A stretch of DNA of 50,110 nucleotides. Origin: a bacterium (GTDB lineage Bacteria; Verrucomicrobiota; Kiritimatiellia; CAIVKH01). Shown piece by piece: positions 15,886-19,973 of this stretch (the first letter of the stretch is position 1; each line of letters starts with the position of its first letter). Made by a program: the position numbers and the translations under genes. The DNA lies in the NCBI GenBank assembly GCA_030432155.1, contig JAUIHQ010000003.1:1-50110 (forward strand). The letters are read 5' to 3'. The notes under the pieces are model-generated. The model was not told the origin of the DNA. It ran no database searches and was given only the letters and a program-made list of their open reading frames with translations.

Positions 15886-15976
15886 ATGGCGGGACATCTT
15901 GAATCATGAGGTGGCGATAAAGGTGCGTCACCCCCATTGGCGAAGCTCGGTAATCGCCTGGAATTCCTGCGGATTG

Positions 15977-16036
15977 GTGTGATTCGCGGGCCTTTTCCTT
16001 CCTTCCACAAGGGCAACCGGGAGGTTGCCCCTCCGG
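15977..16036 (+). repeat. REP-like repeat, copy 1, with hairpin GGGCAACC/GGTTGCCC
   Basis: 60-bp unit matching copy 2 at 56 of 60 positions. It ends in the perfect 8-bp inverted repeat GGGCAACC (16011-16018), loop GGGA, GGTTGCCC (16023-16030), followed by CTCCGG. The two inner mismatches to copy 2 are compensatory, which keeps the stem intact. Confidence 0.85.
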
Positions 16037-16157
16037 GAAAATCCCTCCCTCGGATGGGGGGCGTTCGGTCCATACAACGGGCACCTTACCCGACGAGGCG
16101 CGAAGCGCACCGGCCTTTCATCCTTCATACTTCATACTTCCGCTTTCGCGAAGATCC

Positions 16158-16217
16158 GTGTGATTCGTGGGCCTTTTCCTTCCTTCCACGAGGGCAAGCG
16201 GGAGCTTGCCCCTCCGG
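16158..16217 (+). repeat. REP-like repeat, copy 2, with hairpin GGGCAAGC/GCTTGCCC
   Basis: Second 60-bp unit, starting GTGTGATTCGTGGGCC. The stem GGGCAAGC (16192-16199) pairs with GCTTGCCC (16204-16211) and is followed by CTCCGG. It ends 17 bp from the sulfatase stop codon and may also act as an RNA 3'-end hairpin for either convergent gene. Confidence 0.85.
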
Positions 16218-17655: not shown

Positions 17656-17736
17656 ACCCAAACCACCTTTCGAATCAACGGCCATCTGTATAACGGGAAC
17701 AAGGCGAAGAACATATGTGGCATTTCGGCAAAGTTC

Positions 17737-17776
17737 AAGCTGATCGGAATACGGGCGGGTTGCCCTTAATCAGCTT
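17737..17776. promoter_or_regulatory. Candidate operator of the first toxin-antitoxin pair
   Basis: Inverted half-sites AAGCTGAT (17737-17744) and ATCAGCTT (17769-17776) are 24 bp apart. The second lies between the proposed -35 and -10 boxes of vapB, where an autoregulating antitoxin would bind. Confidence 0.3.
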
Positions 17777-17788
17777 TTCGTGTATGGT
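17760..17788 (+). promoter_or_regulatory. Candidate promoter of the first toxin-antitoxin pair
   Basis: TTGCCC (17760-17765), a 17-bp spacer and TATGGT (17783-17788) end seven bases before the ATG at 17796. There is no Shine-Dalgarno sequence, so transcription would begin at or one base before the start codon. Confidence 0.45.
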
Positions 17789-17795
17789 TTCATGC

Positions 17796-18056
17796 ATGGC
17801 AACAAAAACCATATCGCTTGAACTCGATGCCTATGAGTTGTTGAAATCGGCCAAGCGGCCCGGGGAGTCCTTCTCCCAGGTCGTCCGTCGGGCCTCATTC
17901 GGCCCATCGGATGCCTCCGGCAAATCCATTCTCGAGGTTCTCCGCGAGCGCCGACCTTCCTATGGCGACACCAGCGCTGTGGCCTATCACGAGAAGCATC
18001 CGGAGAGGGACCGTCCCGCCAGCCCATCAGCCTGGGGAGAGCACCCGTCACCTTGA
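17796..18056 (+). CDS. VapB-type antitoxin
   Basis: 86 residues from the third in-frame ATG at 17796 ([20 protein letters not shown]). The ORF-track start at 17715 would add 27 unrelated residues. The N-terminal ~35 residues look like the short DNA-binding/dimerisation segment of archaeal/PVC-type VapB antitoxins ([21 protein letters not shown]). The C-terminal half is polar and presumably wraps around the toxin. Its stop overlaps the toxin start, and it would bind VapC and repress the shared promoter. Confidence 0.8.
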
Positions 18057-18451
18057 AGTTGCTGGATACATCTTTCCTGATCGACCTGCACCGGGAGTGG
18101 GCCAAAACCGGGATGGGTCCGGCCATGAGGTTTCTCCATTCGAACGATACCGAGCAGATGGGCGTGTCGACCATTAGCCGATTGGAATTTCTGGAAGGCT
18201 TCACCCGGACCGGAGAAGGCGAACTCTTCCTCGCCCCCTTCATCTCGCTGGATGTCACCCATCAAACGGCACGAATCGGAAGCCGAATTCGCCAAGGTCT
18301 GCGGAAGGACGGTATGATGATCGGAGACTTCGACATCCTGATCGCCGCAACCGCGCTGGAGCACGGCATTGTATTGGTCACAGGCGATACCGGCCATTAC
18401 CATCGGATCCGGGATCTGGAACTGGAAGCGTACCGGGAACTCGAAGCCTGA
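18053..18451 (+). CDS. VapC-type PIN-domain toxin ribonuclease
   Basis: 132 residues starting at a TTG (18053) embedded in the TTGA overlap with the antitoxin stop, so translation is coupled. The PIN acidic residues are all present: Asp5 ([10 protein letters not shown]), Glu in [11 protein letters not shown], Asp in [11 protein letters not shown] and Asp in [14 protein letters not shown] toxins cleave RNA, often tRNA or rRNA, with Mg2+. The rare TTG start should keep toxin yield below antitoxin yield. A GGGGAG sequence some 13 bases upstream is a poor ribosome-binding site. Confidence 0.9.
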
Positions 18452-18632: not shown

Positions 18633-19793
18633 TTACCGGAAGCGTGAAAACAGGCGATCCCGCAGGCGACGTGGTACTGGTGTAGAAGGCGGCGGGACGG
18701 GAATCCGGGCCAGGGCTTCGGGGTTGACCTTTCGGGCGAGGTCGCAAAGCTCCTCGGTGTAGCTTCGTTCCGGTGCATACCGCTTGAGGTTGAGCCCGCC
18801 AAAACAGGATGGCGGCATGGCGGCGAGGTCAAAGCCGGGCGGGAACGTCGCAAAGGCATCCAGCTTGCCCGTCAGCCACAGCGGCGCCATGACCTTCTGG
18901 CATTTGCGGCACACCCCGCAGTTGAGGTAGGCGCCCGGTTGCTGGAAACACACGCGCAGATGCTGCTGAACCACCGGCCAGTCGGCCACGGCCAGGATTT
19001 TTTCGATCCGCGAGGCTTCGCACCCATGGTGAAGAAACGTCAGGTTCTCGGTGGAGGCCAGGGCATCGGTATACGGATTCGAGCCGATGGGGGGATTCAG
19101 AAGGGAGTACCGATTGGTCGAAGGAATGATCAGGCGGCGCAAACCATGTTGCAGGAACAGGCCGACCGCCTGAATCGCGGCGCCGTGAAAGGTGATCCAG
19201 GATACATGGGGTTCGACCAGCGCCCGGACATTGGTGCGGCACCGCAGGAGCTTGACCGATTGCGTGGCCAGCGCCGCTTCATTGCCGGCGGCGGCTTCCT
19301 CGTAAAACCGGGGATCCTCCAGCGGGATATCGAACCCGTGAACAAACAATCCGTACCCGATGCGGTGATTGGCCACCGGTTCGGTTTCCGGCCGGTGATG
19401 CCACAGGGTGTGGAACGAATCCACCCCTCCGGTGAAACAAGCCGCGACCGCTTCCGCCGGGGTGACGGCTTCTTCGTAGCCGGCAGCATGCAGGGCGACC
19501 ATGCTCAGTTTATCAGGGAACCAAAGATGGAAATACTTTTGGATCTGGCGCGCGCCGTAATGAAATGCCGGCGAAAGCGGGGCATCCACCGTGACCGACT
19601 CCCCCAGGGCCATGGCGAGAAAGAGAGCCGCCATCACCGGGGCTTCCATACGGTCGGAGATCCACCCGGCATAGGCATCGGGCACGGAGAAACTCAGGTC
19701 CTCCGGAGCAAGACCCGCGGTCTCGAATTCAATCCGATATCGGCATTCCGTCCATGCGTGCGACGTGCAACATTCTCCAGGATAAATTCGCAT
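18633..19793 (-). CDS. QueC-like PP-loop ATP pyrophosphatase, unknown substrate
   Basis: 386 residues, soluble. The ATP-binding PP-loop is ACFTGGVDSFHTLW (Thr-Gly-Gly-Val-Asp-Ser at 121-126), a variant of SGGxDS. Near the C-terminus Cys282, Cys292, Cys295 and Cys298 (NCGVCRKC) have spacing very close to the zinc site of QueC, the 7-cyano-7-deazaguanine synthase. An extra ~115-residue N-terminal region and the degenerate loop set it apart from true QueC. Such proteins adenylate a carboxylate or similar group before amidation or thiolation; the actual substrate here is unknown. It is flanked by repeats, is not in an operon, and has no clear ribosome-binding site. Other queuosine genes are absent. 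Confidence 0.7.
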   Translation of the reverse strand: MRIYPGECCTSHAWTECRYRIEFETAGLAPEDLSFSVPDAYAGWISDRMEAPVMAALFLAMALGESVTVDAPLSPAFHYGARQIQKYFHLWFPDKLSMVALHAAGYEEAVTPAEAVAACFTGGVDSFHTLWHHRPETEPVANHRIGYGLFVHGFDIPLEDPRFYEEAAAGNEAALATQSVKLLRCRTNVRALVEPHVSWITFHGAAIQAVGLFLQHGLRRLIIPSTNRYSLLNPPIGSNPYTDALASTENLTFLHHGCEASRIEKILAVADWPVVQQHLRVCFQQPGAYLNCGVCRKCQKVMAPLWLTGKLDAFATFPPGFDLAAMPPSCFGGLNLKRYAPERSYTEELCDLARKVNPEALARIPVPPPSTPVPRRLRDRLFSRFR

Positions 19794-19819
19794 GACAAGA
19801 AATGATCCGAAGGAGTTCC

Positions 19820-19973
19820 CGTCATGACCCGAATGCCACTAGCTTAAGCTGATTTCCCATCGTAATCGTAATCATGCTCCATCATCCTAATCCCTCAACG
19901 TTGGAGGATTAAGATCAAGATTACGATGGGGACTGCTGTGCTCCCTTAAGCTAGTACCATTCCGTCATGACCC
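19820..19973. mobile_element. 132-bp MITE-like element (19831-19962) with 11-bp target duplication
   Basis: The element is bounded by terminal inverted repeats GAATGCCACTAGCTTAAG (19831-19848) and the complement of GAATGGTACTAGCTTAAG (19945-19962), 16 of 18 identical. It is flanked on both sides by the direct repeat CGTCATGACCC (19820-19830 and 19963-19973), containing the palindrome GTCATGAC. Internally CCCATCGTAATC (19856-19867) pairs perfectly with 19919-19930, so most of the element can fold into one long hairpin closed by CCTC/GAGG. It encodes nothing. The structure fits a non-autonomous transposable element; no matching transposase is in the window. Confidence 0.75.

Follow-up and report, generated by a model that had tools for sequence, protein, structure and literature searches.

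The window, i.e. the whole 50,110-nt stretch of DNA that was analysed, carries a 132-bp element with no coding capacity in the intergenic region between a gene for a 386-aa protein (18636-19793, - strand) and an mrpE-like gene (20399, + strand). The preliminary description had regarded it as a 132-bp MITE bounded by 18-bp terminal inverted repeats and flanked by a target-site duplication of 11 bp, and the coordinates, the terminal repeats matching at 16 of 18 positions and the perfect flanking repeats were all reproduced (Table 1). Including the final C of the right terminal repeat extends the flanking repeat to 12 identical bases, CCGTCATGACCC (19819-19830 and 19962-19973). A nested inverted repeat lies inside the ends; its two arms are 80% complementary and are composed of degenerate TCGTAA-type hexamers. 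The G+C content of the element is 45%, compared to 61% for the window. Neither a plasmid match nor an Rfam match was found for the element. The 386-aa ORF (18633-19793), which is without any Pfam match, has its start codon 38 bp downstream of the MITE, and the MITE may contact the promoter of this ORF.

Table 1. Features of the MITE in the window
Feature	Position	Strand	Remarks
MITE, no gene	19831..19962	.	132 bp
Left target-site duplication copy CGTCATGACCC	19820..19830	+	11 bp; 11-bp duplications are family-wide
Right target-site duplication copy CGTCATGACCC	19963..19973	+	11 bp, perfect match to the left copy
Left terminal inverted repeat GAATGCCACTAGCTTAAG	19831..19848	+	18 nt; fits IS4-subgroup ends -AATR--------WTW- (PMC2266710)
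Right terminal inverted repeat, - strand reading GAATGGTACTAGCTTAAG	19945..19962	-	18 nt
Inner arm 1, degenerate hexamers (TCGTAATCGTAATC...)	19856..19880	+	common to relatives
Inner arm 2, complementary hexamers (GGATTAAGATCAAGATTACGATGGG)	19906..19930	+	common to relatives

All 11-bp repeats lying 60-500 bp apart in the window, together with 40 simulated windows, served as the comparison set for this arrangement. The inner ends of the next best repeat pair in the window matched at 9 of 18 positions, and the best of the simulated windows reached 11 of 18, compared to 16 of 18 for the MITE. In line with the earlier judgement, the flanks together with the terminal repeats thus exceed what chance would give. 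When folded as single-stranded DNA, the MITE had a z of -6.85 relative to shuffled sequences, and none of the 200 shuffles folded as well.

In the genome to which the window belongs (3.89 Mb in 466 contigs, 86% complete), the only other copy was a near-full-length one at C401:2465-2603, which is 79% identical, decayed and devoid of its left end; the many short matches in this genome are to the hexamer arrays only. A DNA search of 346 genomes of the class revealed, in other families, a subfamily of homologous MITEs, which has in common with the window MITE an interior of inverted NTAATC/GATTAN hexamers. One order is kept throughout an alignment of eleven copies, namely an end, TTCC-ATC, a hexamer array, a loop, a GATTAAGATCAAGATTA-type array and an end. 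The members L051, L044, L053, L047, L119 and L213 have the ends of the window MITE and the same succession of array, loop and complementary array, and their 11-bp flanks are mostly preserved; they are about 72-79% identical to the window MITE, and the array lengths vary. Where both ends are present, the 11-bp flanks differ from copy to copy, as in L051 (GGGACGGGCCT), L045 (GGCACTACCCC) and L053 (AGGCCCGTACC/AGGCCCGTCTC). Relatives with the same ends thus carry different 11-bp duplications at different sites, in agreement with the MITE reading.

The target-site duplications were further analysed in 159 elements with both ends, gathered from all loci, one of which is the window copy (via L031). 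The 11-bp flanks matched at 10 or more positions in 89 of the 159 elements, while mismatched (random) pairings did so in approximately 0.5%. No flank match was found in these elements at lengths of 6-9 and 13-16, and almost none at other lengths; the duplication is thus of constant length, 11 bp. A further candidate, in which the flanking repeat formed part of an extended REP-like end with GGGGTC as its terminus, was rejected, since the flanks vary from copy to copy and agree only at a length of 11 bp. From 84 distinct duplications, a symmetric target consensus, GGGTCWGACCC, was obtained, of which the window site retains only the right half, GACCC. The duplication in the window scored weakly against this consensus, falling within the top 4% of the window 11-mers and below the lower quartile of the family duplications. 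The palindrome GTCATGAC had been put forward as a possible target preference of the transposase. It lies off-centre and occurs in 1 of the 84 distinct duplications, that of the window copy; since no duplication except the window's own contains it, this idea had to be abandoned.

The motif GAATGNCRCTNNNTTAAG, which fits the ends of the window MITE, was found in 102 of the 346 genomes of the class, compared to approximately 5 hits for the reversed pattern. Among the matches listed for named genomes, the paired-end pattern was present, by the depositors' own labels, in Verrucomicrobia, Kiritimatiellaeota, Lentisphaerae, Gamma- and Betaproteobacteria, and also in Planctomycetes, Cyanobacteria and Omnitrophota. 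A simple search motif has thus been gained, consisting of the ends GAATGNCRCTNNNTTAAG, an 11-bp duplication and the target GGGTCWGACCC, by which elements of this type are found in Verrucomicrobia, Kiritimatiellaeota, Proteobacteria, Planctomycetes and Cyanobacteria.

The same ends bound insertion sequences of 1.5-1.9 kb in relatives, whose single ORF encodes an IS4-family DDE transposase (NCBIfam NF033592). Two end pairs approximately 1.6 kb apart each had perfect 11-bp duplications and enclosed one large ORF (501 and 494 aa, respectively); the two proteins scored 192 and 180 bits against NF033592, above its cut-off of 115, and also contained Pfam DDE_Tnp_1. The autonomous elements of the class (L086, L087, L242 and others) display the end motif of the window MITE and duplications of 10-11 bp, and L242 has the same CTAGCTTAAG core. 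However, L086, L087 and L242 are 1.5-1.9 kb long, contain the DDE transposase gene and have an interior unrelated to the hexamer hairpin of the MITE. In the class, there were 26 matches to the transposase, most of them enclosed by these ends, and the end motif is present in 17 (counted by eye) of the 19 transposase-bearing genomes (Fisher p 3e-8). The transposase that had been sought for these termini therefore exists between the same ends in the genomes of relatives and is of the IS4-family type, and what was an orphan repeat is now tied to a named transposase family. The autonomous elements that have their ends in common with the MITE were found in other genomes rather than in the window's own, in whose assembly (86% complete, 466 contigs) no IS4_1-type transposase was found, the sole hit being of the IS701 type. 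Therefore, the window copy has probably been stranded, or else the partner is located in the portion of the genome absent from the assembly.

An occupied and an empty site could be compared for one relative. In Sedimenticola hydrogenitrophicus SB48 (L183), a 1508-bp autonomous element is located between two copies of CCCTCTGACCC, and the corresponding site of Sedimenticola SN1189 (L142), the flanks of which are 93-95% identical to those of SB48, contains one copy of CCCTCTGACCC and no insert. This pair concerns a relative with variant ends (GAATGCTACTTAGTTAAG), not the window element. The site pair called for in the preliminary description was thus obtained for the Sedimenticola relative and not for the window copy, for which no empty site was found through the orthologues of the 386-aa gene (best orthologue, 59% identity). 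The comparison of SN1189 with SB48 at the L112 site gave no clean empty site either. In SB48, an autonomous IS4-type element lies exactly within the duplication on the right-hand side of a MITE whose ends are related (L142, 2866-3008; L183, 3993-5654), and dozens of places in the SB48 genome match such MITEs.

Members of the IS4 subgroup have ends of the form -AATR--------WTW----, duplications of 10-13 bp, a size of 1400-1650 bp and a single-ORF DDE transposase with the YREK motif Y(2)R(3)E(6)K (PMC2266710). Both ends of the window MITE agree with this form by position, and its 11-bp duplication lies within the range. The window MITE has no gene; such a transposase, with its single ORF and YREK motif, is found in the autonomous relatives, some of which, at 1.8-1.9 kb, exceed the published size. 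An alignment of four transposases showed no variation at the YREK residues or at the catalytic D, D and E, and the Y(2)R(3)E(6)K motif, like DDE, is conserved with E. coli InsG, to which the transposases of the relatives are 25% identical over 449 columns and with which they have the NF033592 match in common. The 18-bp ends of IS4 (insG) in E. coli K-12 MG1655, TAATGCCAGTCAGTTAAG and TAATGCCGATCAGTTAAG, are of this type as well and match the left end of the window MITE at 13 and 12 of 18 positions (counted by eye), and IS4 has a 12-bp flanking repeat; unlike the MITE, it is 1426 bp long and encodes its transposase. We can thus assign the feature with high confidence to the MITEs of the IS4 insertion-sequence family, the IS4 subgroup being the nearest. 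No IS4-subgroup MITE of such design was found in the part of the literature covered. The window element is real but largely ordinary, and its kind is already known.

A different branch of the IS4 family, e.g., an IS231-like one, is quite unlikely to be the source. The IS231 target is GGG(N5)CCC, which GGGTCWGACCC resembles, and the relatives' transposases are only 25% identical to E. coli InsG. The IS231 duplications of 10-12 bp would suit this source as well (PMC2266710). However, the window-type ends start with GAATG and fit -AATR--------WTW-, whereas the ends of IS231 and ISH8 start with CAT and those of IS4Sa with CA (PMC2266710).

Given an IS4-type partner, we infer that the window copy was moved by cut-and-paste, with the transposase acting in trans. 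The 18-bp ends would be the putative binding and cleavage sites of the DDE transposase supplied in trans, which would excise the 132-bp element from a donor site. The element would then be joined to staggered cuts 11 bp apart between the 386-aa gene and the mrpE-like gene, and gap repair would give rise to the two CGTCATGACCC copies. We also considered a REPIN/REP-type element moved by a Y1 (RAYT, IS200-like) single-strand transposase, the paired palindromes of which would fold as single-stranded hairpins. The strong single-strand fold of the MITE, its intergenic position and the four Y1_Tnp genes over the cut-off in the window's genome are in line with this origin. Nevertheless, Y1 elements are not known to duplicate their target, and the 11-bp duplications of the elements described here are found at a variety of sites; the genes enclosed by the same ends encode DDE transposases of the IS4 type. 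Because of these duplications and transposases, the REP/RAYT origin was set aside as very improbable. Like the window MITE, REPINs and RAYT-associated elements are short, non-autonomous, intergenic and hairpin-forming (PMC3116915); the window MITE differs in having a target duplication and in its partner, which is of the DDE type and not Y1. Even less credible is a non-mobile hairpin, whether arising by chance or serving as a structural element (a terminator or an mRNA element), beside which the flanking repeat would be a coincidence. In the intergenic regions of the class, hexamer hairpins lacking these ends are indeed common; however, the match of the flanks and the ends is far beyond that in the simulation, and homologous copies are present at unrelated sites with 11-bp duplications of their own.

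The interior of the IS4-type MITE resembles these free-standing period-6 hairpins, i.e., inverted NTAATC/GATTAN arrays, which in the genomes of the class are intergenic, mostly without IS4-type ends and often located between genes of one direction. They were seen at loci L257-L268 (genomes G048, G003, G017 and G057) and, in the window's own genome, at L003-L020. The period-6 pattern had 571 matches in G056, 330 in G024 and 102 in G048, compared to 8, 73 and 0, respectively, for the reversed pattern. No description of such hairpins was found in the part of the literature covered. The MITE may have captured a period-6 hairpin, or the hairpins may derive from MITEs. It is conceivable, but rather doubtful, that the period-6 interior is more than filler and that the free-standing NTAATC/GATTAN hairpins form a separate undescribed repeat class with a role of its own, one of which was captured by IS4-type ends and spread across families. 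The analysis sets the window MITE apart from the period-6 hairpins, which abound in some of the class's genomes.

Two other features of the window were observed. A VapB-like antitoxin ORF is followed by a PIN-domain (VapC-like) ORF at 17715-18451, and the two likely constitute a toxin-antitoxin pair. Just before the 3' end of a sulfatase gene, a 65-bp direct repeat occurs at 15972-16036 and 16153-16217, the copies being 91% identical and 181 bp apart.
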